A DNA stretch of 64,000 nucleotides from Salvelinus alpinus (lineage: Eukaryota > Chordata > Actinopteri > Salmoniformes > Salmonidae): NCBI RefSeq assembly GCF_045679555.1, contig NC_092087.1, forward strand, positions 22,592,925 to 22,656,924. Reading direction: 5' to 3'. Position numbers and translations under genes: made by a program. Each line of letters begins with the position of its first letter. Position 1 is the first letter of the stretch. A model generated the notes under the pieces. The model searched no databases. It was not told the DNA's origin and saw nothing but the letters and a program-made list of their open reading frames with translations. Positions 25,201-50,034 of this stretch are shown here, one piece after another.

Positions 25201-26057
25201 GGAGTGTATATAATAGTGATGAGTGTCTATTCTGTATAATATAGGCCTACCTGACAATTGCTTTCACATGCAAAAATAACTGTAAATAATTGTTAATAAA
25301 CTATTTAACTGTAAATGACTATGAGTTAACTATTGTGTAATAAGACAATTATTTAGAATAGATTTCAGGATGACACTTTTATAGACCTATCTGCTCAATT
25401 GCATTTTCACTTTTTAAACCCCTTGGGTTTACAAATTCGCAGGGACCTTAAGCAGATGATCAATAAAAACGTATTGTGTTTCAGTCTAGCTAATAGCAAT
25501 TACGCATTTTCATCCTGCATCAAGTAGATTGTGGTTCCACAGCTAACAATGACTCCAACGTGTATAAAAGCACGCTCAATCATATTGTATTTCTGTCTAC
25601 CACATCTCCATATGTACCCTACATAAAATAACACAGCTATAAAAATAGCCCTCGAGTTAACTCAAAGATTAAAACGTTGCTTTCCTTTTGTGTCAATTGA
25701 GACACGGGGTCACCACCAATAGGCGATGGAGGAGGAATATGCTAATTAGGGACGGGTCTACTCTGACAGTGACCTTGAGAAAGACAATAAAACGAGCACA
25801 AACCTCTAATAATAGTAATCATGTTGTGTGCACCCTGAGGTCAGTTTACAACTTCCAACTCGTCTGTTTTTTTTGGTGTTGTTTTTTGTCACTACGCACC
25901 GGTACCATATCCATGTGTAGTTGTTTCTCATGTTTAATTTTTCATACAATGTATTTATTCTTGCTAAAAAACGTATCTTGATATTTCTGTTCTGCTAAAA
26001 CAACTTTTTCGTATATTGTCAAGAATGGATATACTCGTTATATTACGCGCGAATTGT
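25201..26057. other. No gene recognised; possible myosin upstream region
   Basis: This AT-rich stretch lies directly upstream of the first myosin coding exon. I cannot identify a promoter, a non-coding first exon or muscle-regulatory sites with confidence. Confidence 0.4.
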
Positions 26058-26219: not shown

Positions 26220-26423
26220 ATGTCCTGCTTTGATGCGAATTAGTTCGGAGGGGCTGGTCCTTTTCTACGAAAAACTGATCTGGAGTTGCTGGCTGCGCAA
26301 ATCATCTCGTTTGATGGTAAAACGCGAGCATGGGTTCCAGACGAAAAGGAGGCTTACATTGAGGATGAGAACAAGCAGCTCGACGGAGACAATGTTATCG
26401 TTGAGAACAAAGATAGAAGAAAG
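26220..26423 (+). pseudogene. myh7b: myh7b first coding exon
   Basis: This 204-bp exon (68 codons, the usual size in vertebrate myosins) starts at ATG 26220. It encodes the N-terminal segment with 'GPFLRKTDLELLAAQ' and 'WVPDEKEAYIEDENKQLDG', and ends at an intact donor 'aag|gtgagt'. Codon 8 (26241-26243) is TAG where Glu would be expected, so translation would stop almost at once. Confidence 0.9.
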
Positions 26424-26740
26424 GTGAGTGCTGCGCTCAGGGATTTGACACTACAGTTGACACACAATCAGAAAATACTACCATGCATCAACCCTTCATT
26501 TCTTTGCAAGTGTTTATAGATAGAATAAAATACTAATAATATATATAATATAATAATTTATTTTGATACATCACTATGAATTGTTTTTAATAATAAAATG
26601 GTATATAGTTTGCAGTGACGGAATATGATATGATAGCAGAATATATATGACAACAGAAGCAGACCTCCCCAGTTCACCCTTGCCCATTGCACCAGTCTCA
26701 CTGCATTGCCTCTTCCTCCTTCCTCTTCCCAGCTCTACAG

Positions 26741-26880
26741 TCTCTTACAGTGAAAGAGGAGGACATCCAGCAAATTAATCCTCCTAAGTTTGACATAAAG
26801 GACATGGCCATGCTGACACACCTAAACAAGGCCTCTGTGCTCTGTCAATTATCTACAGTACACACCGGCTCATTCAAGGG
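26741..26880 (+). pseudogene. myh7b: myh7b second coding exon, damaged
   Basis: After a good acceptor 'ctctacag' the exon reads '[17 protein letters not shown]', then '[15 protein letters not shown]', which is typical myosin sequence around residues 70-105. One codon is missing relative to the family ('KFDKIEDMAML'). The end of the exon is not recognisable. A Tc1 fragment begins just after it. Confidence 0.85.
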
Positions 26881-26885
26881 ATTTT

Positions 26886-27880
26886 CTTAATTTTTTACTA
26901 TTTTCTACATTGTAGAATAATAGTAAAGACATCAAAACTATGAATAACACATATGGAATCATGTAGAAACCAAAAAAGTGTTAAACAAGTTACCCTTTGC
27001 CTTGATGGCAGCTTTGCACACTTGGCATTCTCTCAACCAGCTTCACGAGGTAGTCACCTGGAATGCATTTCAATTAACAGGTGTGCCTTGTTAAAAGTTA
27101 ATTTATGGAATTTCTTTCCTTCTTAATGCTTTTGAGCCAATCAGTTGTGTTGTGACAAGGTAGGGGTGGTATTATGGCAAGAACAGCTCAAATAAGCAAA
27201 GAGAAACAACAGTTTCTTCAAGTGCAGTCACAAAAACCATCAAGCGCTATATGAAACTGGCTCTCATGATGACCACCACAGGAAAGGAAGACCCAGAGTT
27301 ACCTCTGCTGCAGAGGATACGTTCATTAGAGTTACCAGCCTCAGAAATTGCAGCCCAAATAAATGCTTCACAGAGTTCAAGTAACAGACACATCTCAACT
27401 TCAACTGTTCAGAGGAAACTGTGTGAATCAGGCCTTCATGGTTGAATTTCTGCAAAGAAACCACTACTAAAGGACATAAATAATAAGAATATAATTGCTT
27501 GGGCAAGGAAACACGCGCAATGGAAATATGTCCTTTGGTCTGATGAGTCCAAATGTGAGATTTTTGGTTCCAACCGCTGCGTCTTTGTGAGACGCAGAGT
27601 AGGTGAACAGATGATCTCCTCATGTATGGTTCCCACTGTGAAGCATGGAGGAGGAGTTGTGATGGTGTGGGGGTGCTTTGCTGGGGACAATGTCAGTGAT
27701 TTATTTAGAATTCAAGGCTCACTTAACCAGCATGGCGACCACAGCATTCTGCAGCGATACGCCATCCCATCTGGTTTGCGTTAGTGGGACTATCATTTGT
27801 TTTTCAAAAGAACAATGACCCACACCTCCAGGCTGTGTAAGGGTTATTAGACCAAGAAGGAGAGTAATGGACTAACAAAC
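26886..27880 (+). mobile_element. Tc1-like transposon, 3' truncated
   Basis: The left terminal repeat is followed by a shortened 5' region and transposase pieces: '[19 protein letters not shown]' near 27318-27377 and '[20 protein letters not shown]' from 27587, in different frames. The last part of the transposase and the right terminal repeat are missing. Same family as 2088-4978 and 45866-46803. Inactive. Confidence 0.8.
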
Positions 27881-28061
27881 TCCAGACAGTAATGGAATAT
27901 GACTTGACTCAATTAAATAAAAATTAAAGCTTTACCAAAATACATGGTGACGTAGCACTACACTACACGTAGCACGTACACAAGCCTTTCGTAACAGCTT
28001 ACTCAGTATCATATCTGAACAGATCATGAGAATCAGTCCATGCTCATTTAACCTTGAGTTA

Positions 28062-28232
28062 ATTAAGAACAAATTCTTACTTACAATGACAGCCTACCAG
28101 GGAAGAGTGGGTTAACTGCCTTGTTCAGGGGCAGAACAACAGGTTTTTACCTTGTCAGCTTGGGGATTTGATCCAGCAGCCTTCAGTTATTGGCTCAATG
28201 CTCTAACGATTAGGCTACCTGCCGCCCCACCA
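28062..28232 (-). mobile_element. HpaI-type SINE
   Basis: On the minus strand it shows a tRNA-like head, 'cagttaacccactc' with the GTTAAC site, and the tail 'aagaatttgttcttaatt'. It is complete but diverged. Confidence 0.75.
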
Positions 28233-28432
28233 ATCACATAATTAAATCCATGTCAGAAAGTTTTGTTGTAATTACTGTTACAGTATACCCTGTATAGTTT
28301 GCTGATATTTCACATACTGCTACTAAAGCAGAAAGTAAGTTAAATTGTGACGTTCAGCTTGGGAGAAATCTTACAGTATTCAGCATCCAAACATAGCCAC
28401 TGTTATAGCATTTTTCTACAAAACAATATATA

Positions 28433-30052
<1,620 letters not shown>

Positions 30053-30261
30053 TATGCACACACACACACAGGGTACACACAGGGTACACAGCTGTCATTC
30101 GCATGGGTACTCCCTGTTGCTTGGATAGCAGATTCTATGGTCTGTGATGTGTTGAGTATTTGATTGTTTAAGAACCTATCCCTGCTGGAATGCTAATCAC
30201 GGAGCTAAATGAACACGAATTAACCTAAATTCACCGTACAGATGCAGTTGATTAATGTCCT

Positions 30262-30394
30262 TTGACTATGTGGTGGTGTTCGACGCTCTGTACCTTTACC
30301 ACATACTCGTTCCCCACCTTCACACTGGGGTACAGGAGCCCCTTGATGAGGTCAGCTGAACTGACTTCCATTAGGGAGGAGGCTTTGTCAGCAC
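30262..30394 (-). pseudogene. myh7b: myh7b motor exon, inverted
   Basis: On the minus strand, after an acceptor '...tgtccag', the exon encodes '[20 protein letters not shown]', then '[18 protein letters not shown]'. This is the 50-kDa-domain segment near residues 375-415 of sarcomeric myosins. It is reversed relative to the exons on both sides. Its end is degenerate. Confidence 0.88.
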
Positions 30395-30830
30395 CTGGAC
30401 AAACATACAGAAGATGTTCATGATGAGACACACACAAGCATAACAATCTGTTGGTTGGAGGCTACAATGTATATGGTCCTGATCTGGTCTCTATGTATGT
30501 CTTGACTATTAGACAATAGTCAGTCCACTTTAGTGCAATGTCTCAAATTGGTAGTCCCCTTTACTTTCAGTGCCTTCAGCCTGTGGAGGAGAGTATCTTT
30601 GTCAATCAGAACTCATGTGATTGGGTCAACAAACACTGCAGCACTTTCTGAGTAGTATTGGATTTGATCCTAATTTAACAATAAGTTCTGGTTTCTTCTG
30701 AGACATGATCTGATAGTAGATATGGTAGCTCCTCTCCCCAGGTTATTGAAATATCACTCTGGATTTTCCAGAAAATCTAAAAGTAAAAAAAATCATAGTT
30801 AAATAAAATAAACAATAAATCATGGGCATA

Positions 30831-30980
30831 CAGTGCATTCGGAAAGTATTCAGACCCCTTGACCTTTTCCACATTTTGTTACGTTAAAGCCTTATTCTAA
30901 AATGGATTCAATTGTTTTTTCCCCTCATCAATCTACACACAATACCCTATGATGACACAGCAAAACTTTTTTTTTTTTTT
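30831..30980 (+). mobile_element. Tc1-like 5' end fragment (second family)
   Basis: The sequence starts 'cagtgcattcggaaagtatt' and continues 'cagaccccttgacc', the left end of another Tc1 family common in fish. It is cut off at a T-run that leads into a palindrome. A matching right-end scrap lies at 49062-49094. Confidence 0.75.
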
Positions 30981-31194
30981 TTTTGAAACAGTCTGTTGTT
31001 ATCAACATCGTTACAGCCCCACCATTTACATTTTCTTCTCACTCCCTATTTTGATTTTTGATTTAGATTTTCCTCTTTAAACTTTTTATCAATTTTTATA
31101 AAAAGTTTAAAGAGGAAAATCTAAATAGGGAGTGAGAAGAAAATGTAAATGGTGGGGCTGTAACGATGTTGATAACAACAGACTGTTTCAAAAA
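30981..31194. repeat. Near-perfect palindrome, arms about 97 bp
   Basis: The left arm (30981-31089) and right arm (31098-31194) are reverse complements, separated by an 8-base centre. The only sizeable difference is about 13 extra bases in the left arm near 31050. The sequence would form a long hairpin. It lies inside the inverted myosin block. Confidence 0.92.
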
Positions 31195-31485
31195 GGAAAG
31201 ACTTGTAAGACTTGAATGAATAAAAAAAATCATTAAAATAATTGAAAGATAACAAGCAGTAACAAAAGAGGGCTGTACACATGACAAATAAGAGCAGACT
31301 TTGAGCCACAAAGGACAGTAAGAATGAAAATGTACATTCACTTTTTAGATGCTCAATGATGGAGTATGACCAAGACACCATAAAGGAATAGGGAAAACAT
31401 TGAGTGAGTTCTTATGACAAAAAAACACCAAAACATTTTTAAAAGGGGGAGGGAAACAAAATTCGGAATGCCATATTGACCTTAC

Positions 31486-31582
31486 TCCTTTTTTAGCAGC
31501 TGCTTCCCCAAAAGCTGCTACAGTGGCAAAATACTGAATGACACATTTGGGGTTGGCAGTTTTGCCAGCACCAGATTCTCCG
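31486..31582 (-). pseudogene. myh7b: myh7b P-loop exon, inverted
   Basis: The minus-strand exon has an intact acceptor 'cctatag' and donor 'gtaagg'. It encodes 'GESGAGKTANPKCVIQYFAT', then 'VAAFGEAAAKKG'. GESGAGKT is the complete nucleotide-binding P-loop of the myosin motor. In minus-strand reading it precedes the exon at 30262-30394 in the correct order, so one block was inverted as a unit. Confidence 0.93.
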
Positions 31583-31789
31583 CTATAGGAGTGTGGGAAA
31601 AGTATTGGTAAGTAAGGAAGAGTGTGTATAAAACAGGTTAAAAAAATGCACAAATCAAGAAAATTACGCCTTAAACTGCAGTCAAAGAAAAAATACCAGA
31701 ATGTTCTCTCTGAACCAAAAACGAGTACCAAAAAAACTCCTGTTTTCACATCTTGAGATGTAACATAAAAATTATATATATATATATAG

Positions 31790-32258
31790 TGGCGTACAGC
31801 AGGTCAGCCACCAGGGGAAGACTCGTCGAGGCCTGGTAACAGATGGAGTATACATCACGAGGCGGTGGCTCCATCTACTGGACGTGCCAGGTCTTGACGG
31901 GCTCTCCGGACAGGACTAATTGGGGCTGATTGGGAGGTGGTGAGTAATCAAGTGCGGAATGCTCACCAGCTGTGCAAGGCCCATAAAGCTGCCAGAAGGG
32001 CAGCATACAGGGAGGACTGGGGGAAGTAAGGTGACTTCTGTGTAGTTGGAGACGGTGCCCGAGGGAGTTTGTGTGCAAAACAGGATACAGCAAGAACCGG
32101 AGCCCAGAAGACGGTATCCCGGAGAGGCTCTCATGGGGGAGACCTATCCTTTTCTTCTGATTTATTATTTAATAAACACCCTTGAAACCGAGCTAATCAT
32201 ACTCTGTCCGTGTCTGATCTGTGTAAAACGTCTTGACCAAACCCCCTGGTCTGCCAAA
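31790..32258 (+). repeat. Dispersed repeat, LTR-like, fossil
   Basis: A unit of about 470 bp with 'aataaacacccttgaaac' near its end resembles a recurrent salmonid sequence. Possible solo LTR, class uncertain. No internal genes are attached. Confidence 0.4.
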
Positions 32259-32267
32259 ATATATATA

Positions 32268-33425
32268 CAGTTGAAGTCAGAAGTTTACATACATAACTTT
32301 GGAAGTATGCTTGGGGTCATTGTCCATTTGGTAGACCCATTTGCGACCAAGCTTTAACTTCCTGACTGATGTCTTGAGATGTTGCTTCAATATATCCACA
32401 TAATTTTACTTCCTCATGATGCCATCTATTTTGTGAAGTGCACCAGTCCCTCCTGCAGCAAAGCGCTGCCACCCCCGTGCTTCACGGTTGGGATGGTGTT
32501 CTTCGGCTTGCAAGCCTCCCCCTTTTTCCTCCAAACATAACAATGGTCATTATGGCCAAACAGTTCTATTTTTGTTTCATCAGACCAGAGGACATTTCTC
32601 CAAAAAGTACAAACTTTGTCCCCATGTGCAGTTGCAAACCGTAGTCTGGCTTTTTTATGGCGGTTCTGGAGCAGTGGCTTCTTCCTTGCTGAGCGGCCTT
32701 TCAGGTTATGACGATATAGGACTCGTTTTACTGTGGATATAGATACTTTTGTACCTGTTTCCTCCAGCATCTTCACAAGGTCCTTTGCTGATGTTCTGGG
32801 ATTGATTTGCACTTTTCGCACCAAAGTACGTTCATCTCCAGGAGACAGAACGCGTCTCCTTCCTGAGCGGGATGACGGCTGTGAGGTCCCATGGTATTTA
32901 TACTTGCGTACTATTCTTTGTACAGATAAACGGGGTACCTTCAGGCGTTTGGAAATTGCTCCCAAGGATGAACCAGACTTGTGGAGGTCTACAATTATTT
33001 TTATGAGGTCTTGGCTGATTTGTTTTGATTTTCCCATGATGGCAAGCAAAGAGGCACTGAGTTTGAAGGTAGGCCTTGAAATACATCCACAGGTACACCT
33101 GCAATTGACTCAAATTATGTAAATTAGCCTATCAGAAGCTTCTAAAGCCATGACATAATTTTCTGGAATTTTCCAAGCTGTTTAAAGGCACAGTCAACTA
33201 AGTATATGTAAACTTCTGACTCACTAGAATTGTGATACAGTGAATTATAAGTGAAATAATCTGTCTTGTAACAATTGTTGGAAAAATTACTTGTGTCATG
33301 CACAAAGTAGATGTCCTAACCGACTTGCCAAAACTATAGTTTGTTAACAAGAAATTTGTGGAGTGGTTGAAAAACGAGTATTAGTGACTCCAACCTAAGT
33401 GTATGTAAACTTCTGACTTCAACTG
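32268..33425 (-). mobile_element. Sleeping-Beauty-type element, internally deleted
   Basis: The minus-strand copy has its 5' terminal repeat at 33425 and a very short 3' terminal piece at 32268, each bordered by TA. About 0.45 kb including most of the 3' terminal repeat and the C-terminal transposase is missing. It is oriented opposite to the copy at 28433-30052. Confidence 0.9.
32426..33034 (-). pseudogene. Truncated Sleeping-Beauty-like transposase
   Basis: An open minus-strand frame starts at '[11 protein letters not shown]' (in-frame ATG at about 33034, with another at 33049) and keeps the full DNA-binding domain ('[20 protein letters not shown]', then '[15 protein letters not shown]'). 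The basic region and the first catalytic Asp ('[11 protein letters not shown]') are also present. After 'VKHGGGS' the frame jumps into unrelated residues and ends, so the second Asp and the Glu are lost. It could bind ends at most. Confidence 0.85.
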
Positions 33426-33445
33426 TATATGGTTGGGTGCTGTAG

Positions 33446-33593
33446 GTTAACTATTCCGTTGAAGCTCTAGCCAAAGCCACTTATAGTCGCATGTTGACAT
33501 GGCTGGTGGGACGCATTAACAAGACCTTGTACACATCCCTGCCTTGCCAGTTCTTCATAGGAGTGCTGGAAATAGCTGGCTTTGATCTTTGAT
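33446..33593 (+). pseudogene. myh7b: myh7b motor exon (before relay)
   Basis: The exon begins after 'gctgtag' and encodes '[19 protein letters not shown]', then '[19 protein letters not shown]', close to residues 418-465 of sarcomeric myosins. It directly follows, in protein order, the inverted exon at 30262-30394. At its end two bases are missing from the 'GFEIFE' codons, giving a frameshift before the donor 'gtaggt'. Confidence 0.92.
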
Positions 33594-33824
33594 GTAGGTC
33601 TATCCACGCCACAGTTTTCACAGGGTGATATCTTTTGAGGCAATTCACAAACAAACATCTTTCTACCTGGATCTTTCACTGCTAGTTAGCAGAAAACAGA
33701 CGGTTCGTCATTTGGGTGTGGTCTGTTAATGTTTACATAATTTTTAAGCTTCATATCACAAGACTAAAATCTGAAGTGCTTTATGCATTCTTAAAATCCA
33801 AGGATTTTATTCCACTCTATATGT

Positions 33825-33895
33825 AGGCCGTCATTGTACATAATAATTTGTTCTTAGCTGACTTGCCTAGTTAAATAAAGGTTAAATAAAAAATA
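33825..33895 (+). mobile_element. SINE/LINE tail fragment
   Basis: Only the 3' tail 'cttgcctagttaaataaagg' and preceding 'taggccgtcattgtac' are present, followed by an A/T-rich end. The head is missing. Confidence 0.75.
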
Positions 33896-33943
33896 TATAT
33901 ACAAAAATATGCTTATTCTGAACCCATGTCCCTTTCATTTCAG

Positions 33944-34114
33944 CTCAACAGCTTTAAGCAGCTGTGCATCAACTTCCCCAATGGGAATCTGCAACAGTAT
34001 TTCAACCACCACATGTTCATCCTGGAGCAGGAGGAGTACAAACAGGAGGGCATTGAGTGGACCTTCATGGACTTCGGGCTCAACCTACAGGCTGGCATTG
34101 ACCTCATAGAGAAT
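33944..34114 (+). pseudogene. myh7b: myh7b relay-helix exon
   Basis: A 171-bp exon, the family length, has intact acceptor 'tttcag' and donor 'gtatgg' and is fully open. It encodes '[20 protein letters not shown]' followed by '[20 protein letters not shown]', which is the relay helix and relay loop that transmit nucleotide state to the converter. It is one of the best-preserved exons. Confidence 0.95.
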
Positions 34115-34330
34115 GTATGGGGAACAACCACTTCTCAAAAACATTGCACTGACATCCCACCTCAGATGAGGTATTGAACCTAAGGATGTGTTTGCTTGCT
34201 GATATGTTTTATGATAAGAACCTGTATCTGTTTGCAGGATTTGTTTTATGTATTGTAATGTGTTTGATTGCATGATGCATCTCAGATTCACTATCTGTAC
34301 TGTATGTTAAGTTGAGCCTTGTTTCTCCAG

Positions 34331-34370
34331 CCCATGTGGGATCATGTCCATCCTTGAAGATGAGTGCATG
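34331..34370 (+). pseudogene. myh7b: myh7b exon, part before LINE insertion
   Basis: After acceptor 'tctccag' the sequence encodes 'PMGIMSILEDECM' once a single extra base near 34336 is discounted. The exon continues at 34914-35054 on the other side of a LINE insertion. Confidence 0.88.
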
Positions 34371-34913
34371 TCACAGGAAGGCCAAAAAGATCATCAAGGA
34401 CAACAACCACCCGAGCCACTGCCTGTTCACCCCGCTACCATCCAGAAGGCGAGGTCAGTACAAGGGCATCAAAGCTGGGACTGAGAGACTGAAAAATAGC
34501 TTCTATCTCAAGGCCATCAGACTGTTAAACAGCCATCACTAACACAGTGAGGCTGCTGCCTACATACAAATCATTAGCTACTTTAATAAATGGATCACTA
34601 GTCACTTTAATAATTCCACTTGAATGTTTACATATCTTGCATTACTCATCTCATATGTATATGCTGTATTTTATACCATCTATTGCATCTTGCCTATGCC
34701 ACTCGGTCATTGCTCATCCATATATTTATATGTATATATTCTTATTCCATTCCTTTACTTAGATTTGTGTGTATTAGGTAGTTGTTGTGCAATTGTTAGA
34801 TCACTTGTTAGATATTGCTGCACTGTCGGAACTAGAAGCACAAGCGTTTCGCTACACTCACAATAACATCTGCTAACCATGTGTATGTGACCAATAAAAA
34901 TTTATTGAATTTG
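34371..34913 (+). mobile_element. 5'-truncated L2-like LINE inside a myosin exon
   Basis: The fragment starts within the end of ORF2 ('RKAKKIIKDNNHPSHCLFTP' just downstream of the junction) and finishes with the 3' UTR and tail 'tttattgaatttg'. It interrupts the myosin codons 'DECM' and 'FPKATD' without removing any, so it inserted into an intact exon. Target duplication is not obvious. Confidence 0.9.
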
Positions 34914-35054
34914 TTCCCCAAGGCGACAGACAACAGCTTTAAAGCCAAGTTATACGACAACCATATTGGAAAGTCAGCTAACTTCCAGAAGCCACAACCT
35001 GATAAGAAGCGCAAGTACGAGGCACACTATGAGATGATGCACCACGCTGAAGTG
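34914..35054 (+). pseudogene. myh7b: myh7b exon, part after LINE insertion
   Basis: The frame resumes as '[20 protein letters not shown]', then '[20 protein letters not shown]', and ends at the donor 'gtaagt'. This is the lower 50-kDa region of the motor. Reading frame and donor are conserved despite the LINE. Confidence 0.93.
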
Positions 35055-35164
35055 GTAAGTATGTAACAATGGTATACTATTGTATTACTTTAGATAGTGT
35101 TATTTGATATAACTTTCATAATGACATGTCTTAGCGAAGTAATAATATTTTTTTCAATTGAAGT

Positions 35165-35295
35165 TTATTGTTTCTTAACAATACAATTGGTACAAAGCAA
35201 TCAAATGTATTTATAAAGCCATTTTAACATCAGCAGATGTCAAAATGCTTATACAGAATCCCAGCCTAAAACCCCAAGCAGCAATCAATGCAGAC
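35165..35295. repeat. Dispersed repeat fragment
   Basis: The stretch around 'cccagcctaaaaccccaa' matches a better-preserved fragment at 40875-41050. Identity as a common fish repeat is from memory. Confidence 0.5.
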
Positions 35296-35575
35296 AAACA
35301 GTATAGGTTTCATTTTTCACCCACAACTCTCAATATGACTCTTTTGGTAGTAGTTAGAGCAACTTTTAGCCACATGAGCTTCCCAATCCATCAATATCAG
35401 TGATATTCAGTAAAAGCAGAGCAGGATTTTGTGGTACCCCGAGTATCTCATTTCTATACCAGAAAACCATGTGTCCTCCTATTTTCGATTTAGGGTGCAT
35501 AGTAATTATCTTGTGCTCCATATGAAAACAGAAACTATTAAGACGTTAATGGTTGACTTCATCCTGACACTCCAG

Positions 35576-35775
35576 GTACCGTACAACATCATTGGCTGCT
35601 TGGATAAAACAATGACCTGTTGAATAAGACGGTGGTGTTGTGCTTCCAGAAGCCCTCCAACAAGCTGCTGGCCTGCCTCTATAAGAACTATGTTGGCTCT
35701 GACTCAGACCAAATGACTGGAGGCAAGGAGAAGAGGAAGAAGGATGCCTCGTCCCAGTGTGTCACAGCTACATAA
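35576..35775 (+). pseudogene. myh7b: myh7b loop 2 exon, frameshifted
   Basis: After acceptor 'tccag' it encodes '[11 protein letters not shown]', then a frameshift (bases missing in the Lys/Asn codons, stop at about 35621), then '[20 protein letters not shown]' and '[20 protein letters not shown]'. This last part is loop 2, the lysine-rich actin-contacting loop. The donor 'gtgaga' is kept. The next intron carries mir-499. Confidence 0.92.
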
Positions 35776-35975
35776 GGTGAGAGGGACAACTTTGTCTGTT
35801 GGTAAGTTGCTCGCAAAGTATATCATATAGCTAATATAATGCAATCATGCTAGTTTATACTTTATCTAGTAGACAGTGAAACTATACAAGTATTACAGTT
35901 TAATAAACAAGCAGAAAGGACATAGCTAGTTAGGCAGTGAAGCTGATTCTACATTGAGAGATAATCTATCCAGTG

Positions 35976-36066
35976 CTGAGAAGGAGACAGTTAAGACTTG
36001 TAGTGATGTTTAGGGAAATTATCACATGAACATCACTTTAAGTCTCTGCTGGCTCCACTCTCATAT
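35976..36066 (+). ncRNA. mir499: miR-499 precursor hairpin
   Basis: The 5p arm (35991-36012) begins 'ttaagacttg' and matches vertebrate miR-499-5p as I remember it, except for T instead of C at position 11. The seed 'TAAGACT' is unchanged. The 3p arm (36029-36050) is 'aacatcacttta' then 'agtctctgct', as expected for miR-499-3p. The arms pair over about 22 bases with a 16-base loop and a few internal mismatches; the changed base was in an unpaired position already. Its host is the intron between the loop 2 and actin-binding exons of MYH7B. In vertebrates it is processed from the MYH7B transcript and acts in slow and cardiac muscle. Whether this copy is transcribed cannot be read from the sequence. 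Confidence 0.93.
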
Positions 36067-36404
36067 GCATCACATACTGTTTCCTCCTTGAAGTCAATGG
36101 AAGAGCTTCAGCTGTGCACAACAACTGAAGGAGAGCATATTTTCATTAACTGCAGCAAGAACTTAGATATTGACTAGTTTATTTTGAAAACACTATATCC
36201 ACACATTTTTCTCATTTGTGTTTATTCATCAGAAAGTATTGCTTATGGGTACCTTCATGTGTTTGTAAAATATTCTTATTCTCAGACTTTTAATTAATAG
36301 ATTTTAGATGTGTATGAAAATGTGTTTTTTGCAAAACGCTATATATCCATTGTTTAGCTGAAATGGAATGTTTGTATCCTGTATATTTGACTGTGATATG
36401 TGGT

Positions 36405-36828
36405 TGTCTCACCTAGATTATCAGGAATCAAGGTAAGACCCAAGTGCAGGGGCAAGCAAACGACAGGTCAAGGCAGGCAGGGGTTGATAATCCAGAGTAG
36501 AGGCCAAGGTACAAGACGACAGGCAGGCTCAGGTCAGGCAGAGGTCGGTAATCCAGAGGTGGAGCAAAGGTATAGGACGGCAGGCAGGCTCAGGGTCAGA
36601 GAGGCAGTGGTCAGGTGTGCGGGTACAGGGTCAGGACAGGCAAGGGTCAAAAACCAGGAGGACGAGAAAAAGAGACTGGGGAAAAACAGGAGCTGAGACA
36701 AAACGCTGGTAGGCTTGAACAAACAAGACAAGACGAACTACCCAGGGGATAAGTGGGGAAGATGGGCGACACCTGGAGGGGGTGGAGACAAGCACAAGGA
36801 CAGGTGAAACAGATCAGGGCGTGACATA
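36405..36828. repeat. Dispersed repeat with internal near-tandem units
   Basis: The block has 'gacaggcaggctcaggtcag' and related units repeated about three times and ends 'cagatcagggcgtgaca'. It resembles a salmonid repeat seen elsewhere; class unknown. It sits in the mir-499 intron, downstream of the hairpin. Confidence 0.5.
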
Positions 36829-36851
36829 GATAAATGCACTTACTTTATGTC

Positions 36852-36942
36852 GCTCTGAATAAGAATCTGAACAAGCTGATGACTAACCTCTGCTGCACTC
36901 ACTTTGTCCTTAGCCTTATCCCCAACGAGACCAAGACTCCAG
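36852..36942 (+). pseudogene. myh7b: myh7b actin-binding exon, with deletion
   Basis: It encodes '[20 protein letters not shown]' and 'NETKTPG', corresponding to '[25 protein letters not shown]' in intact genes. Two residues are deleted and the acceptor is no longer recognisable, while the donor 'gtacag' remains. The conserved Arg-Cys before IIPNE is replaced. Confidence 0.88.
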
Positions 36943-37075
36943 GTACAGCATTCAACTGAGATCCAATGAATTCTGAGTGCCTAGGAAATCGTAGGAACAT
37001 ATGTTATTTACTGTAAGTGCTCCAGAGAGCGTTTTCTCTCTGATTGATAACCCCCTCTCCCCCGGTCCTCTGCAG

Positions 37076-37193
37076 TGATCATGGATGCCTTCTTGAAGCT
37101 GCACCAGCTTCGCTGGAACGGGTTGCTGGAGGGTGTCAGGAACTGCAGGAAGAGATTTCCAAACCACATAATCTATGCAGAGTTCAAACAGTG
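37076..37193 (+). pseudogene. myh7b: myh7b SH1/SH2 helix exon
   Basis: A 118-bp exon of family length has acceptor 'ctgcag' and donor 'gtgagt', fully open. It reads '[20 protein letters not shown]', then '[17 protein letters not shown]'. The reactive SH1 cysteine is present ('NCRK'); the SH2 cysteine of 'LRCNG' is replaced by Trp. Confidence 0.93.
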
Positions 37194-37284
37194 GTGAGTG
37201 TGATGACACACTTTCATTCCCACAACACACATATAAAAATAAAATTGGAATAAATCATATACAATGTTTTCTTTTTACTCACAG

Positions 37285-37408
37285 CTATCGCATCCTGAAC
37301 CCACATGCCATCCCTGATGATGCGTTTGTGGACAGCAGGAAAGCAACAGAGAAACTGCTCGGGTCCCTCGAGGTCGACCACAACCAGTACAAGTTTGGAC
37401 ACACTAAG
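37285..37408 (+). pseudogene. myh7b: myh7b converter exon
   Basis: A 124-bp exon of family length is open, with acceptor 'cacag' and donor 'gtagaa'. It encodes '[20 protein letters not shown]', then '[20 protein letters not shown]'. This is the converter domain that drives the lever arm. No damage is visible in it. Confidence 0.94.
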
Positions 37409-37490
37409 GTAGAAGGCTGAGGCTTTACATGTGTGTTTGGTCAATTAATCACATAAACACACATTGGATCTATAGGCAAATGAAGTTGTA

Positions 37491-39055
<1,565 letters not shown>

Positions 39056-39101
39056 TATGTGATCTTCCTGACTGGGTCTGGATGGGGTTCTCCTTCTCTA
39101 G

Positions 39102-39234
39102 GTGTTATTTAACACATTTAAGGCAGGTCTGCTGGGGCAGCTGGAGGAGATGAAGGATGAGCGTCTAGCCAAGGTCCTCACGCTGCTCCAGGCTGTCAGC
39201 TGAGGATAGAGCTCCAGAATGGGATGGCCAGAAG
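39102..39234 (+). pseudogene. myh7b: myh7b lever-arm / IQ exon, frameshifted
   Basis: After acceptor 'tctctag' it reads '[20 protein letters not shown]', then '[13 protein letters not shown]' and a TGA stop (about 39201). Extra bases near its start ('VFFKAGLLG' in relatives) and the frameshift before the IQ motif show decay. The donor 'gtaaca' remains. Confidence 0.9.
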
Positions 39235-39239
39235 GTAAC

Positions 39240-40013
39240 AGATCATGGCTTAATTTGATTTGATAATGTCAAGTGCTCTAGTAAAGTACCTAAATGAAGT
39301 CAGTTGTCCTAGAATATTGGGGAGGTACTGTATTATCTCTTTGGAGTGCAGGAGTGTTGTCAGGAGTGTTAGAAGTGTGTGTGAGGCGTGTGCTTGTCCA
39401 TGTATGGTTGCCTTGCAAGTGTGTGGCCCCCATGTTAATATTGAACCCATTCCCCCCTCGCTCACACACATTCCTCCCCACCCCTCTCTGCTCTCCCTAA
39501 ATTAAACAATGCTGATGGTGTCCTTAGAGCCAGGTGGCGACATGTGTCAAGTAGCAGCTGCTCGGGCCCACCCTAAAAGTACCCCCGCCTGCCCCGTGGC
39601 CCCTAGCCGCTTTTGTTCCAGGCGCCTGCAGTTCTAAGTGAGCACATAGAAGGGATATGTGGTGGGTGACAGAGGATTATAGCCTGCCGTCTAACAGAGG
39701 GCTTTAGTTTCTAAATAAACACATAGGCGCTCACGTTTGAGAGGCAATGAGCACAGAGTCACGTCTGAAATGCAATCATACCACAGCGACCACCCATTCA
39801 CCCTGCCACCCCCGACACCCTGCCTGACCATGGCCCTGCACTCACTCAGGCACACATTCACAACTCTGACAGGAAGTACCTGACCATGTTTCAAAAAGGT
39901 AATTTTTGTTTTGATACAATGCCACATCGTATTGCCTGTTATTGGATTTCTTCGTTAAATTTTTTTTCCAGCCACCTAAACTTTGACATTCCCCATAATC
40001 TTCCCTAAAACAG
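39240..40013. other. No exon recognised; several myosin exons missing
   Basis: Between the lever-arm exon and the next tail exon, intact genes have exons for about 200 residues of neck and S2. I find none here. Frames at 39250-39505 and 39691-39927 have no myosin character. Confidence 0.5.
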
Positions 40014-40159
40014 TAGGAAGGTTGTTTGGAGCAAGAGAAGAAGGTGCGCATGGACCTGGAATGGGTCAAGTGCAAGCTGGAGGGGGACCTGAAGCTATCC
40101 ACGGAGTCTGTCATGGACCTGCAGAATGAGAAGCAGCAACTTGAATAGAAGCTGACCAA
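40014..40159 (+). pseudogene. myh7b: myh7b S2 coiled-coil exon
   Basis: A 146-bp exon of family length encodes '[20 protein letters not shown]', then '[20 protein letters not shown]' and a TAG stop before 'KLTK'. This is the proximal tail (S2) with heptad spacing. The donor phase fits the next exon ('AA|G AAA GAC TTT'). Confidence 0.92.
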
Positions 40160-40252
40160 GTGAGAACAATCTACTTGATTGAAGACTGATCAGTTCTCTG
40201 GTCAATGATCAATTAAAAAATATGAATGTAATCTACTCTTCTTTCGAATCAG

Positions 40253-40343
40253 GAAAGACTTTGAGATTAACCAGATCACCACCAAGATTGAAGATGAACA
40301 AGCCTTGACCATTCAGCTCCAGAAAAAGATCAAGGAATAACAG
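40253..40343 (+). pseudogene. myh7b: myh7b tail exon
   Basis: A 91-bp exon of family length has acceptor 'aatcag' and donor 'gtatga'. It encodes 'KDFEINQITTKIEDEQALTI', then 'QLQKKIKE' followed by TAA where another codon is expected. Otherwise intact. Confidence 0.92.
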
Positions 40344-40491
40344 GTATGAATGTAAAATCGGGTCTAGAAATACTAACAGCAATTTCTCATGAATATAATA
40401 CTATTACATTTCTCAATAGATTACAAAGATCATAGATCACAAACTGAAAATATCCATTGATCTCTTTGTCTATGCCCATGTCTTCTCCCAG

Positions 40492-40614
40492 GTTCGTATC
40501 GAGGAGCTGGAGTCTGACCGGGCATCCTGTGCCAAGGTGGAGAAGCAGCTGGGTGATGCCAAGATGGAGGCGGACGATCTGGCATCCAACGTGGAACAGC
40601 TCTCCAAGAGCAAG
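40492..40614 (+). pseudogene. myh7b: myh7b tail exon with in-frame internal deletion
   Basis: It starts 'VRIEELESDRASCAKVEKQL' and ends 'MEADDLASNVEQLSKSK'. These two ends belong to the start and end of a much longer exon (about 390 bp) in intact myosins, so roughly 267 bp were lost and 123 bp remain. The frame stays open. Acceptor 'cccag' and donor 'gtagag' are kept. Confidence 0.9.
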
Positions 40615-40702
40615 GTAGAGAGATGAGCATACGCACACCTGTTCAGAAGTATGTCAAGTATATGTGGGCTGGTTCTGCAGCTGATCCCACTTGTATTTCC
40701 AG

Positions 40703-40733
40703 GCTGATGCTGAGAAGATGTGTCATCTGTATG
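40703..40733 (+). pseudogene. myh7b: myh7b tail exon, part before LTR insertion
   Basis: After acceptor 'ttccag' the exon reads 'ADAEKMCHLY' and is then split by an LTR-like insertion. It continues at 41425. Confidence 0.9.
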
Positions 40734-41424
40734 TGTTATGGGAATTTTATGAATAATGACTAAATGTATACATTTAACGTAGAATTATAACTAACAGAAT
40801 TATATCCTGTCTGATGAAGAATGTTTGTCCATAAGAAAGAGGGACTGTTAGTAGGCAAGGAACTGTGGCAGACAATCAATCAATCAAGTTGATTTTTTAT
40901 TTTATATAGCCCTTCGTACATCAGCTAATATCTCGAAGTGCTGTACAGAAACCCAGCCTAAAACCCCAAACAGCAAGCAATGCAGGTGTAGAAGCACAGT
41001 GGCTAGGAAAAACTCCCTAGTAAGGCCAAAACCTAGGAAGAAACCTAGAGAGGAACCAGGCAACTTGTGACCACTGTGAAACTGATAACAGGGATGGATG
41101 GAAGTCTCCCCACCCAGGGAGGGGAGAGACCTTGGGCTTGTAGTAGATTGTATAACAGGTGGCAGACCATGTATGAGAAGAAGACTTGTGAACTATGTTG
41201 CCATTGTATCTGAGAGGAGGAGTGACGTTTATGATGAAATGTGAGGTATATAGACCAATGTACCGGAAATGATAAGCAGAGCTCTCTAAATAAACATTCC
41301 TGACAATTGTAGCTGGACCTCCGCCTGATTCATTTCAACCAGTTTCTTACAAATTCTGGATTTCAGGCTGAGTAATTAATTCAATTGGGTATTATGAACA
41401 ACTGAGAACAAAATTATTGTAACA
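40734..41424 (+). mobile_element. Solo-LTR-like fossil inside a myosin exon
   Basis: The unit starts TGTTATGGG and ends TTGTAACA, and is flanked by the 5-bp direct repeat GTATG (40729-40733 and 41425-41429). TG...CA ends and a 5-bp duplication fit an LTR retroelement. No internal genes are present, so it looks like a solo LTR. A fragment of another repeat (about 40868-41050) is embedded in it. It postdates loss of the host exon's function or caused it. Confidence 0.75.
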
Positions 41425-41534
41425 GTATGAGAACCAGATAAGCGAGGACAAGGACAAGGTGGAGGAGCACCAGAAGTAGAACAATGACACTAACGCCCAG
41501 AGAGCCCGCGCTCAGGCCGACTGTGGTGAGGCCC
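41425..41534 (+). pseudogene. myh7b: myh7b tail exon, part after LTR insertion
   Basis: The frame resumes at the duplicated GTATG as 'YENQISEDKDKVEEHQK', then a TAG stop, then 'NNDTNAQRARAQADCGEA'. Intact relatives read '...EEHQRLINDLTAQRARLQ'. The exon is cut again by the next LTR-like unit. Confidence 0.9.
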
Positions 41535-42195
41535 TGTTACGGATACAAGTGTTCTGTGTGTATCCTGTGTGTATTTCTTTTCTCTCCTTCTCCCCTACTC
41601 ACAGGTGACAATAATCATTCCCCAATCAGTCATCAATCAGTCGCTAATCGGAAGACACCTGCTCCTTTTCCCTTACCCAATCACAGTCCCTTTCCCTTGG
41701 TTTAAAACCCCTGTCAGTTGTTTTCTCCCCAGCTCAATCTCTTTGTAACATGCCTTCTGTCTGTAGATCGCTTGTGTGTTTTGCATCTACATGTCACTTT
41801 GTCCCCACCTGTGAGTATTGTTTTGGTTATGGTGTTTGAGTGTTTGTTTGATGGTGGGAAAAGGGGGTAACCAGACAAGTCGCCCTTGGGCTACACTACC
41901 CGTAGTTAAACATTGTTAAAAAGACTAGTTAGAACTGGGCGGACCACCCCCTGTATTTTTGGTTAGTTAGCTGTTTGTGAAGTAGGCTAGTCTAGCTTAG
42001 GGGTGTTTTTGAATTATTATTCTTTCATTCCTTGGGTCCCGCTCAGCCCCTTTTCCTGCTCCCCCCCCCATTTACCGTGTGTTTATAAATAAACATTTAG
42101 TGTTTGACGGTAATTAAGTTGTCTGTGTTATTTGTTCTCACTGTTACGTTTTCACTACTATAATTTGCATGAGTTGTGTTACGGGTCCCATTACC
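41535..42195 (+). mobile_element. LTR-like fossil, second unit
   Basis: Starts 'tgttacggatac' and contains an 'aataaa' signal near 42087-42092. I recognise it as a salmonid LTR type from memory. The right end is uncertain; a LINE follows. No coding region is attached. Confidence 0.55.
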
Positions 42196-43209
42196 ATCCC
42201 CCCTAGACTGTGCATATTTGTGCATATTTGTAAACAACATATACTGTGCATATTTGTAAACAACAGCTGGTGCACGAAATCTAAGGAAGTCTCTAGATTT
42301 TGCTTGCCTGAAGTAGAGTATATAGTGATAAATTGCAGGCCACACCACTTGCCTAGAGTTTTCAGCTATACTGTTTATTTACCACCACAGACAGATGCTG
42401 GCACTAAGACCGCACTCAGACAGATGTATACGGAAATAAGCAAACAGGAAACCACTCACCCAGAGGTGGCGCTCCTAGTGGCCGGAGACTTTAATGCAGG
42501 CAAACTTAAATCAGTTCTACCAAATTTCCATCAACATGTTAAATGTGCAACCAGAGGGGGGGAAAAAATTCTAGATCACCTGTACTCCACACACAGAGAC
42601 GCGTACAAAGCTCTCCCTCGCCCTCCATTTGGTAAATCCGACCACAACTCTATCCTCCTGATTCCTGCAAAAATTAAAGCAGGAAGCACCGGTGACTCGG
42701 TCTATAAAAAAGTGGTCAGATGAAGCAGATGCTGAACTACAGGACTGTTTTGCTATCACAGAATGGAACATGTTCCGGGATTCTTCCGATGGCATTGAGG
42801 AGTACACCACATCAGTCACTGACTTTATCAATAAGTGCATCGAGGATGTCGTCCCCACAGTGACTGTATGTACATACCCCAACCAGAAGCCATGGATTAC
42901 AGGCAACATTCGCACTGAACTAAAGGGTAGAGCTGCCGCTTTCAAGGTGTGGGACTCTAACCCGGAAGCTTAAAAGAAATCCTGCTATGCCCTGCGATGA
43001 ACCATCAAACAGGCAAAGCGTCAATACAGGGCTAAGATTGAATCATACTACACCGGCTCCGACACTCGTCTTATGTGGCAGGGCTGGCAAACTATTACAG
43101 ACTACAAAGAGAAGCACAGCCGCGAGCTGCCCAGTGACACGAGCCTACCAGACGAGCTAAATCACTTCTATGCTCGCTTCGAGGCAAGTAACACTGAGGC
43201 ATGCATGAG

Positions 43210-43658
43210 TGTCATGACATTGGCCTGTTGGGGGAGGTTTATGACCCCCATAAATACCTTTCCCCTTTTCTCTCTCTCTACTTTAGAGTTGACTCTTGTA
43301 AAGCCTTTGTAACAGAGTCTGGTAACATCAAAAGGTGGGAAACGGAACCATATTTCGGTAATCCAACCAGTTGAAAATATGTGTTGGTACTTAATGAATA
43401 TGATCTCAGATCAGTTGTTGTCTGAGACATTACTACTAATGACAGGATGACATAAACTGTATCTTGGAAAGTTGACACATTCTAGTTATCAGATTCACAT
43501 GGAATTGTTGTGCAATTTAAATGTTTAAATATGAAACTATTTGTGAAAAGATTAAATGTAATTGTAGCTTCTTAAATGAGAGAACGGTTTGCATTGAGAA
43601 ACTCTGCTCACTCAGAGTTCACTCACTTACTTAATCCGGCATAGCCAAAGACACGACA
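43210..43658 (+). mobile_element. LTR-like fossil in the LINE
   Basis: The unit begins 'tgtcatgacattgg' and ends 'acacgaca', interrupting LINE codons that continue on both sides. TG...CA ends suggest a solo LTR; no clear target duplication. Younger than the LINE. Confidence 0.55.
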
Positions 43659-43853
43659 AGACCATCAGCTGTTCCAGATGACTGTGTGATCACGCTCTCC
43701 GTAGCCGACGTGAGTAAGACCTTTAAACAGGTCAACATACACAAGGCTGCGAAGCCAGACGGATTACCAGGACGTGTGCTCCGGGCATGTGCTGACCAAC
43801 TGGCAGGTGTCTTCACTGACATTTTCAACATGTCCCTCATTGAGTCTGTAATA

Positions 43854-44437
43854 TGTCGTGGCAATTTCCTGTATTATCAAATGAGGAGAGTTAGAAACCA
43901 CACACCAGTCAGAGTTATACTTAAACTTCATCTTTAATAATGTGAGCTTTACTATAGCCCTTTGACTCTCAGATCAATTCAGTGTCTATAATGAATTCTG
44001 AGTGCCTATAAAAGAATACTAAGATCTTTTATAGCCAAAATACATCCCCCTAGTCGGCATGACAAACCACAGATAATAGGAACTCTTCACAAAGGGCCTT
44101 TTACTTGAGAAAGGAGTATCCCATAGCCAGATAGCATTAGCTATAAATTATCGTTCAGTTTGGTCTCTAAGACGAGGTTCTAATCGCGTTCCTGGTACTT
44201 CATAGTACAAAAACATAACCTCACTATCTGGAATGCTCTTTAGGCTTTATTGGCCAAAGACATCGTAAATCTCCTCTGTCAGTGCTATCTCATAGAGGCC
44301 CATCCTCAGTGGAACACTGAACACACAATAGTCGACAGATTCTATTCTGTCGAATAAAACAACCATTCTAATGCAATACAAAGATTATAATTTAATTTTA
44401 CAAGCACTATAACATAATCTCGCAATTTTCCACGACA
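43854..44437 (-). mobile_element. Solo-LTR fossil in the LINE
   Basis: The unit begins 'tgtcgtgg' and ends 'ccacgaca', with the direct repeat 'aata' on both sides (43850-43853, 44438-44441). The minus strand carries 'aataaag', so the LTR is probably in minus orientation. It resembles a salmonid endogenous-retrovirus-type LTR. No internal genes are present. Confidence 0.65.
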
Positions 44438-44474
44438 AATACCAACATGTTTCAAGCAGACCATCATAGTCCCT

Positions 44475-45347
44475 GTGCCCAAGAACACAAAGGCAACCTG
44501 CCTAAATGACTACAGACCCGTAGCACTCACGTCCGTAGCCATGAAGTGCTTCGAAAGGTTGTTAATGGCTCACATCAACACCATTATCCCAGAAACCCTA
44601 GACCCACTCCAATTTGCATACCGCACAAACAGATCCACAGATGATGCAATCTCTATTGCACTCCACACTGCCCTTTCCCACCTGGACAAAAGGGACACTT
44701 ATGTGAGAATGCTATTCATTGATTACAGCTCAGTGTTCAAAACCATAGTACCCTCAAAGCTCATCACTAAGCTAAGGATCCTGGGACTAAACACCTCCCT
44801 CTGCAACTGGATCCTGGACTTCCTGATGGGCCGCCCCCAGGTGGTGAGGGTAGGTAGCAACACATCTGCCATGCTGATCCTCAATACTGGAGCTCCCCAG
44901 GGGTGCGTGTTTAGTCCCTTCTGCACTCCCTGTTCACCCACGACTGCATGGCCAGGCACGACTCCAACACCATCATTAAGTTTGCAGACGACAACAGTGG
45001 TAGGCCTGATCACCGACAATGACGAGACAGCCTATAGGGAGGTCAGAGACCTGGCCGGGTGGTGCCAGAATAACAACCTATCCCTCAACGTAACCAAGAC
45101 TAAGGAGATGATTGTGGACTACAGGAAAAGGAGGACCGAGCACGTCCCCATTCTCCTCGACGGGGCTGTAGTGGAGCAGGTTGAGAGCTTCAAGTTCCTT
45201 GGTGTCCACATCACCAATGAACTATCATGGTCCAAACACACCAAGACAGTCGTGAAGAGGGCACGACAAAACCTTTTCCCCCTCAGGAAACTAAAAAGAT
45301 TTGTCATGGGTCCTGAGATCCTCAAAAGGTTCTACAGCACTTATTGA
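44475..45347 (+). pseudogene. LINE reverse transcriptase remnant
   Basis: A 290-codon open frame covers RT blocks: '[20 protein letters not shown]', '[20 protein letters not shown]' and '[20 protein letters not shown]'. It continues through '[14 protein letters not shown]' to '[20 protein letters not shown]'. A frameshift near 44920 moves the catalytic FADD codons (44981-44992) out of frame, and a second shift restores the original frame. The frame is open but the enzyme core is broken. Confidence 0.88.
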
Positions 45348-45815
45348 TGAAGCCGATGATTGAGATGGTATACTCCTCAATGCCATTGGATGAATCCCGG
45401 AACATATTTCAGTCTGTGCTAGCTAAACAGTCCTGTAGCGTAGCGTCCGCGTCATCTGACCACTTCCGTATTGAGCGAGTCCCTGGTACTTCCTGCTTGA
45501 GTTTTTACTTCTAAGCAGGAATCAGGAGGATAGAATTATGGTCAGATTTGCCAAATGGAGGGCGGGGAGAGCTTTGTATGCATCTCTGTGTGTGGAGTAA
45601 AGGTGGTCTAGAGTTTTTTTCCTCTGGTTGCACATGTGACATGCTGGTAAAGATGTTGTAAAACTGATTTAAGTTTGCCTGCATTAAAGTCCCCGGCCAC
45701 TAGAAGCACCGCTTCTGGATGAGCATTATCTTGTTTGCTTATGGCCTTAGAGTTGGTTGAGTGTGGTCTTAGCGCCAGCATCGGTCTGTGGTGGTAAATA
45801 GACGGCTACGAATAA
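45346..45815 (-). mobile_element. LINE endonuclease fragment, opposite orientation
   Basis: On the minus strand this is the endonuclease and linker part of the same LINE family (complement of 'ccggggactttaatgcaggc' near 45685). It abuts the plus-strand LINE at 45345, giving a tail-to-tail pair of fragments. Confidence 0.75.
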
Positions 45816-45865
45816 TATAGATAGTGTGGTCTACAGCTTATCATAAGGAACTCTACCTCGAGCAA

Positions 45866-46803
45866 TCAAGCGCTATGATGAAACTGGCTCTCATGATGAC
45901 CGCCACAGGAAAGGAAGACCCAGAGTTACCTCTGCTGCAGAGGATAAGTTCATTAGAGTTACCAGCCTCAGAAATTGCAGCCCAAATAAATGCTTCACAG
46001 ACTTCAGGTAACAGACACATCTAAACATCAACTGTTCAGAGGAGACTGCGTGAATCAGGCCTTCATGGTTGAATTGCTGCAAAGAAACCACTACTTAAGG
46101 ACACCAATAAGAAGAAGAGACTTGCTTGGGCCAAGAAACACGCGCAGTGGACATTAGACCGGTGGAAGTCTGTCCTTCGGTCTGATGTGTCCAAATTTGA
46201 GATTTTTGGTTCCAACCGCCCTGTCTTGGTGAGACAGAGTAGGTGAACAGATTATCTCTGCATGTGTGGTTCCCACCGTGAAGCAAGGAGGTGTGTTGGG
46301 GTGCTTTGCTGGTGACACTGTTGGTGATTTTTTAGAATTCAAGGCACAGTTAACCAGCATGGCTACAACAGCATTCTGCAGCGATACGCCATCCCATCTG
46401 GTTTGCACTTAGTAGGACTATAATTTGTTTTTCAACAGAACAATGACCCAACACACCTCCAGACTGTGTAAGGGTTATTTGACCAAGAAGGAGAGTGATG
46501 GAGTGCTGCATAAGATGACCTGTTCTCCACCTTCACCCAACCTCAACCTAATTGAGATGGTTTGGGATGAGTTGGACTGCAGAGTGAAGGAAAAGCAGCC
46601 AAAACGTGCTCAGCATATGTGGCAAAGGGTGGTTACTTAGAAGAATATAAAATGTAAAACATATTTTTTTGGTTACTACATGATTCCAAATGTGTTATTT
46701 CATAGTTTTAATGTCTTCACTATTATTCTACAATGTAGAAAATAGTATAAATAAAGAAAAATCCTTGAATGAGTAGGTATGTCTGAACTTTTGACTGGTA
46801 CTG
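45866..46803 (+). mobile_element. Tc1-like transposon, 5' truncated
   Basis: It starts inside the transposase ('[20 protein letters not shown]' region) and runs to the right terminal repeat ending 'ttgactggtactg' before TA. Broken transposase blocks include 'NDPTHLQTV'-type and 'NLIEMVWDELDCRVKEKQ' sequences. Same family as 2088-4978. Inactive. Confidence 0.82.
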
Positions 46804-46900
46804 TATTTAAATAAGATATTTCATTTTCAATAAATCAATTCAACTTATTTTGAATTCATACTGTAACCAGTGGTGTAAAGTATCGAAGTAAAAATACTTA

Positions 46901-48506
<1,606 letters not shown>

Positions 48507-49054: not shown

Positions 49055-49098
49055 TGAATAAATGAAGGGGTATGAATACTTTCTGAAGGCACTGTATG
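49055..49098. mobile_element. Tc1 right-end scrap (second family)
   Basis: The sequence 'gggtatgaatactttctgaa' then 'ggcactgta' is the right end of the family whose left end is at 30831-30980. Only the terminus remains, directly before a myosin exon. Confidence 0.7.
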
Positions 49099-49108
49099 TA
49101 TTCACCAG

Positions 49109-49934: not shown

Positions 49935-49936
49935 CC

Positions 49937-49993: not shown

Positions 49994-50034
49994 TACCCTG
50001 ACATGTTATCTAATCGTATGGTCATTGAACTCAC

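Follow-up and report, generated by a model that had tools for sequence, protein, structure and literature searches.

In mammals and zebrafish miR-499 lies in an intron of an intact MYH7B/MYH14 myosin gene, and in several fish the microRNA has outlived that host. Medaka, stickleback, Atlantic cod and platyfish are reported to keep miR-499 at a locus from which the host is gone (Bhuiyan et al., 2013, PMC3716903), and survival of miR-499 without a host at the locus in fish is also described in PMC4177693. These accounts bear out the claim of a sequence-only reading of the DNA described here that miR-499 has persisted after MYH14 loss in some teleosts. Medaka is reported to express miR-499 even though its locus is without a host (PMC3716903). 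By its own account that survey leaves Protacanthopterygii unreviewed. A study of microRNA retention after the salmonid duplication describes rainbow trout as keeping nearly all of its microRNA loci in duplicate (PMC4774146).

Here we describe a mir-499 hairpin inside a dead myh7b gene in Salvelinus alpinus. It was found in a stretch of 64,000 nucleotides (contig NC_092087.1, positions 22,592,925 to 22,656,924), hereafter the window, all positions being counted from its first letter. We compare it with the three other mir-499 copies of the same genome, designated C12, C17 and C28, the last of which sits in an intact myosin gene.

A mir-499 precursor inside a broken myosin gene

At curated cut-offs, cmscan returned a single Rfam match in the window, mir-499 (RF00745) at 35978-36057 on the forward strand, spanning the full model (1-80) with 86.5 bits against a cut-off of 60 (E 1.4e-16). 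The predicted hairpin has a minimum free energy of -42.9 kcal/mol, and 0 of 200 shuffled sequences folded as stably (z -5.97). Its parts are as follows.

35978..36057, forward strand: mir-499 precursor, full Rfam model 1-80, from cmscan and fold
35991..36012, forward strand: miR-499-5p (guide), T at base 11, seed unchanged
36029..36050, forward strand: miR-499-3p, C at base 18 (G in C12, C17 and C28)
35977..35978, forward strand: basal TG, a Drosha landmark, 14 bases before the 5p start
36068..36071, forward strand: CNNC motif (CATC), 18 bases after the 3p end

All seven seed bases of the 5p arm agree with the RF00745 consensus. Among the 54 conserved consensus columns the window copy differs at five, one of 20 in the 5p arm, one of 19 in the 3p arm and three of 11 in the basal flanks, with no mismatch in the seven seed or four loop columns. 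Seed and fold are kept, as the sequence-only reading had stated. It had also counted one arm change, at base 11, and placed it at an unpaired position; the position holds, and the count does not. There are two changes, C to T at 5p base 11 and G to C at 3p base 18 (base 56 of the pre-miRNA), both at unpaired, non-seed bases and neither carried by C12, C17 or C28. In an alignment inspected by eye the CNNC motif has equal spacing in those three copies; the Drosha landmarks stand at their usual spacing. With its long stem, a basal UG at -14 and CNNC at +18, the window copy has the sequence features of a canonical microRNA gene and is a candidate functional one. Basal UG and CNNC are named as Drosha determinants (PMC6298569). 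The opposite strand of the hairpin (35982-36062, reverse) scores 46.6 bits, under the cut-off, and 45.4-46.3 bits in the other three copies.

Within this genome the T at 5p base 11 is confined to the window copy and so does mark it, as had been proposed. We considered this T as damage and dropped that view, the same T being printed in chicken mir-499 (PMC9876980); agreeing with the printed chicken form, it need not be damage and is compatible with a working microRNA. A grouper qPCR primer carries it as well (PMC9437975). The four genomic loci encode exactly two mature 5p forms, and two are also described in Atlantic salmon, ssa-miR-499a-5p and ssa-miR-499b-5p, both about 70 times higher in heart (PMC6356880). 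A literature search with a 13-base piece carrying the T gave, among the matches listed, none with a salmonid in its title, and a comparison of the mature sequence with viral contigs gave 0 matches.

The hairpin lies between myosin exons matching human MYH7 residues 597-649 and 653-686. The exons, found with the human MYH7 protein as query, run from 26.2 to 54.5 kb; one of them, checked independently, has chains named Myosin-7 as its best PDB matches and is Myosin_head in Pfam. The reading frame opens at 26220 with ATG, and its codon 8 is TAG. The host and the elements that disrupt it are laid out as follows.

26220..54540, forward strand: dead myh7b, with a start ATG, a stop at codon 8 and 27 recognised exons out of 41
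35777..36860, forward strand: intron of the host that separates coding exons 17 and 18, with its donor GT retained
30277..31582, reverse strand: inverted host exons 12, 9 and 6 (P-loop exon)
50036..50361, reverse strand: inverted host exons 33 and 34
28428..29582, forward strand: Sleeping Beauty-like transposon copy with a Tc-type transposase domain, left of the inverted block
32292..33430, reverse strand: Sleeping Beauty-like transposon copy, right of the inverted block, in opposite orientation

The figure of 27 exons counts those passing threshold against intact C28; exons 1 and 5 are visible otherwise. Relative to C28, exons 6, 9, 12, 33 and 34 lie on the opposite strand, and the tail of exon 3 is replaced by transposon sequence. 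The exons carry 9 frame-breaking indels and 7 in-frame stops. Over-stretched alignment makes some of these doubtful, namely the indels of exons 3 and 21 and the exon 36 stop; the count sets aside exon 27, whose 6 indels and 4 stops are a product of stretched alignment. Through stops, frameshifts, missing and inverted exons, and with no clear codon periodicity left, the host has lost its coding function. Rfam match, fold, intron position and host lesions together confirm a miR-499 hairpin within a dead myh7b, the central claim of the earlier reading. The two Sleeping Beauty-like copies are 94% alike and inverted relative to each other, and a fragment of one matches Sleeping Beauty SB100X at 75 of 82 residues (counted from the alignment). 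Because these opposed elements flank the first inverted exon block, recombination between them is likely the cause of that inversion.

The window holds further repeats. Positions 54690-56248 and 60342-61900 form a 1559-base inverted repeat of 100% identity, which is a very recent duplication or else an artefact of assembly; a hAT-type transposase frame overlaps the copy at 60342-61900, and the same frames recur in that at 54690-56248. A Tc1-type transposase frame of 356 codons with no stop (50595-51665, reverse) has a neighbour copy of 97.8% identity at 46899-48508, both being apparently recent insertions, and 13296-13449 is a perfect AC repeat of 77 units.

Four mir-499 loci and the fate of their hosts

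We searched the 2.37-Gb genome with RF00745, scoring 60 of 348393 first-look candidates, and obtained eight matches. Four exceed the cut-off, in C17 (90.6 bits), C12 (90.3), C28 (88.2) and the window (86.5, the lowest of the four), and the remaining four are the opposite strands of the same places. This number of copies, the size of the genome and the close SB100X match fit a salmonid. Exon divergence pairs the window with C12 and C17 with C28, the pattern that two rounds of duplication predict. All four loci adjoin a gene that matches human trpc4ap and is presumably trpc4ap; Pfam returned no match for the two pieces of it that were submitted. In the window this neighbour is cut down to matches at 56478-57526 and 63010-63105 (both reverse), covering about residues 158-348 and possibly 25-56. 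In C12, C17 and C28 the matches continue to the C-terminus.

The C28 host is intact. Spliced alignment from MYH7 residue 4 to 1928 gave 41 exons and 1922 residues with 0 stops and 0 frameshifts, all exon borders being GT-AG save one GC donor, and the hairpin lies between coding exons 17 and 18, in the same intron as in the window. Exon 14 of C28 is Myosin_head in Pfam; a PDB search with this short piece at a cut-off of 1e-33 gave no match. The other two hosts are broken: C12 retains 24 of 41 exons, with frameshifts and in-frame stops and with exons 24-38 absent, and C17 retains 17 of 41, without exons 4-9 and nearly the whole rod.

We compared rates of change by codon position in the 11 of 41 exons common to the four copies (1076 sites), using locally aligned columns and dropping the two bases next to every gap or end.

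Branch-specific changes per site (codon positions 1, 2 and 3)
Window:.045,.053,.058
C12:.042,.028,.036
C17:.039,.064,.058
C28:.011,.011,.028
Internal branch between the pairs:.070,.047,.242

A looser count gave the same picture at higher rates. These rates indicate that the host was under protein constraint before the pairs split and still is in C28, most or all of that constraint being lost in the other three. Judged by these exons, then, the hosts in the window, C12 and C17 lost their coding function after the last duplication. They apparently died separately: in seven exons inspected base by base we saw no frame-breaking lesion common to the window and C12, which fits separate deaths and is no proof of them. 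When the three dead copies are pooled and exons 1 and 5 omitted, 10 of 45 exons are lost before the hairpin and 39 of 72 after it. These losses are not all separate events, as neighbouring exons vanish together in single deletions. A need for the promoter-to-hairpin stretch alone would give such a pattern, and a few large deletions could give it too.

Conservation of the hairpins and their upstream sequence

Expected numbers of changes in the hairpins were derived from exon rates of two kinds. Strict rates use locally aligned exon columns only, and the ranges below are without and with exons 21 and 27; they may err low, since local alignments favour well-kept stretches. Looser rates (.0685,.0346 and.0806) come from exon alignments stretched to full length, which run into non-homologous tails (the last part of window exon 3 is transposon and that of C17 exon 13 repeated sequence, and C17 exon 21 contains foreign sequence). 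P values are those at strict rates, weaker than the looser ones, unless marked otherwise. The far flanks of the hairpin and the C17-C28 near flank were misaligned and are excluded.

Across the three dead-host copies, the 38 arm bases that are paired in the C12 fold show 0 changes where 5.0-5.4 are expected (P 0.005-0.007), and in the 60-base pre-miRNA there are 2 where 7.9-8.5 are expected (P 0.010-0.015); for all 44 arm bases the count of 2 against 5.8-6.2 is borderline (P 0.05-0.07). At looser rates the arms have 2 changes against 8.1 (P 0.013), the paired bases 0 against 7.0 (P 0.0009), and the pre-miRNA reaches P 0.0012. Both changes belong to the window copy. Taken alone, C17 gives P 0.04-0.05 for the pre-miRNA and 0.09-0.10 for the arms, and C12 is not significant (P 0.12-0.24). 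Between the members of a pair, the C17 and C28 pre-miRNAs show 1 difference in 60 bases, compared with 213 in 2046 for their exons (P 0.012; looser, 0.0017), and those of the window and C12 show 3 in 60, compared with 198 in 1686 (P 0.07; looser, 0.028). In a ranking of 100-base segments, with transposons in the chain and the promoter omitted, the low value of the window-C12 hairpin was reached by 16 of 238 segments and that of the C28-C17 hairpin by 0 of 207. There is thus moderate statistical support that the dead-host hairpins have been kept by selection as a set. The suggestion in the sequence-only reading that selection acts on the microRNA alone stands to that extent, for the three copies pooled, on paired bases and pre-miRNA more clearly than on the 44 arm bases.

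Upstream of the host, two blocks are common to the four copies.

25695..25809, forward strand: promoter-like block common to four copies, about 450 bases before the coding start
25716..25724, forward strand: CCAAT-type site CCAATAGGC, identical in four copies
25770..25778, reverse strand: TCAAGGTCA (TGACCTTGA on the other strand), an ERR-type site, identical in four copies
25784..25792, forward strand: TATA-like ACAATAAAA (ACAATATAA in C12)
23167..23230, forward strand: upstream conserved noncoding element, about 3 kb upstream, common to four copies

Within the promoter-like block three stretches (9, 10 and 7 bases long) are unchanged in all four copies, having been picked for being unchanged. 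In pairwise counts 11 of 101 bases differ between the window and C12, on par with dead exons, and 9 of 102 between C28 and C17. Counts of singletons at looser rates (2, 1 and 2 changes against 7.5, 3.8 and 8.9 expected) had pointed to selection on the whole block, which the pairwise counts did not uphold; the singleton test is misleading here, as singletons are under-counted where the two pairs differ. The block is a candidate promoter for miR-499 that, as a whole, is no better kept than dead exons. ERR-gamma is described as an activator of the miR-499 promoter (PMC5048369). The upstream element at 23167-23230 lacks five bases in the window copy only. Downstream, 3.6 kb after the hairpin, a noncoding segment (39607-39719) has a counterpart of about 72% similarity in C28 and is present in C12 as well; it may be a conserved intronic element.

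Alternative explanations and comparison with known loci

We judge it somewhat more probable than its negation that the window holds a real mir-499 gene whose host died after the last duplication, and that the microRNA, with its old promoter, is probably still transcribed as a noncoding RNA. Direct support extends to the hairpin, its fold and landmarks, the dead host, the four loci, the three dead hosts and the slower change of dead-host hairpins as a set; transcription, processing, an effect on targets and current selection on the window copy we infer. The teleost and salmonid-type duplications would have left four myh7b copies, this host among them. RNA polymerase II would most likely start some 10 kb upstream, at the old myh7b promoter, and give a noncoding transcript, from which Drosha would release the hairpin whether or not the ruined exons splice; splicing has been argued to be unnecessary for the release of intronic microRNAs (Bhuiyan et al., PMC3716903). 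The mature miR-499 with T at base 11 would join the miR-499 pool of heart and slow muscle and may repress the usual seed targets, for example Sox6, a reported target of miR-499 (PMC4159003, PMC3239296). A study of rainbow trout reports up-regulation of MYH7b in the red muscle of fish that were swimming (PMC3540090), in line with at least one host being active.

A broader proposal, to which we give slightly less than an even chance, is that the microRNA rather than the myosin is the product that has been kept. Three of the four myh7b copies would have died separately after the salmonid-type duplication while four hairpins and a CCAAT/ERR/TATA-like core were retained for miR-499 dosage, so that three former myosin genes would now be noncoding primary-microRNA genes, one of them giving the variant with T at base 11.

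The window copy may instead be a decaying relic, miR-499 being supplied by C28, C12 and C17 and too little time having passed to break the hairpin; this we hold to be a substantial possibility, though not the probable one. On the window branch alone the arms show no slowdown, with 2 changes against 2.1-2.3 expected (P 0.60-0.65), and the paired arm bases (0 against 1.8-2.0, P 0.14-0.16) and the pre-miRNA (P 0.40-0.45) behave similarly; looser rates give P 0.42 for the arms, 0.22 for the pre-miRNA and 0.07 for the paired bases. In neutral simulations all 17 arm pairs were kept in 682 of 2000 runs at a rate of 0.05 and in 457 of 2000 at 0.0685, as a relic would predict, and the folding energy of the window copy was reached in 244 and 131 of 2000 runs, respectively. 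The window also has the lowest Rfam score and the shortened upstream element, and it alone of the four copies has trpc4ap cut down. Selection on the window copy by itself, the narrower sense of the earlier suggestion, thus finds no backing in the arms, the Rfam score or the upstream element. Against a relic, both arm changes lie at unpaired positions, which number 6 among the 44 arm bases (P 0.016, the test being picked after the data were seen), the UG, CNNC and core promoter sites are still present, and the T at base 11 is the chicken form. On its sequence, the window hairpin is compatible with weak constraint or with drift that has so far been harmless, and appears to be the most relaxed of the four copies.

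Gene conversion between copies, rather than selection, could make the four hairpins alike, and the identity of the arms in C12, C17 and C28 is in keeping with it. However, the loop and basal flanks differ between the pairs, the bases around the hairpin carry pair-specific changes, and a conversion tract would have to skip the loop between the arms, so we consider this very improbable. Scarcely credible is a living host misassembled in the window: the nearby 1559-base perfect inverted repeat could be an assembly problem, but the damage consists of point stops and small indels in scattered places, the exon changes lack clear codon periodicity, and the inverted exon block is bordered by opposed transposon copies.

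Among known loci, the window locus shares with the intact MYH7B/MYH14 genes of mammals and zebrafish the host, the intron by exon position, and the seed and fold; unlike them, its host makes no myosin, and two of its arm bases differ from those of the other copies in the same genome. As in the fish cases of Bhuiyan et al., miR-499 has kept its syntenic position (TRPC4AP, NDRG3, SULF2) although myh7b/MYH14 has been lost from it, and for those cases the conserved 5' flank of the host was proposed to drive miR-499 (PMC3716903). The main text of the study of microRNA retention in rainbow trout does not contain "499", and the passages of it considered here do not mention dead hosts (PMC4774146). 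At the level of titles and openings of abstracts, in a coverage outside which most subscription journals fall, we found among the matches listed no report of salmonid miR-499 in dead hosts.

As far as these searches go, three things are new: host loss is seen half-way, it has apparently happened three times in one genome that also has a living control, and of the four copies the one in the window is conserved least. In the fish cases from the literature considered here, host loss is finished and the myosin is gone from the locus, whereas here the host remains readable and the process is caught half-way, apparently three times, with three dead hosts and one intact in the same genome. Host decay, hairpin and promoter can for that reason be compared base by base, and this family of loci makes it testable whether the microRNA, its dosage or the host protein is what is kept after genome duplication.
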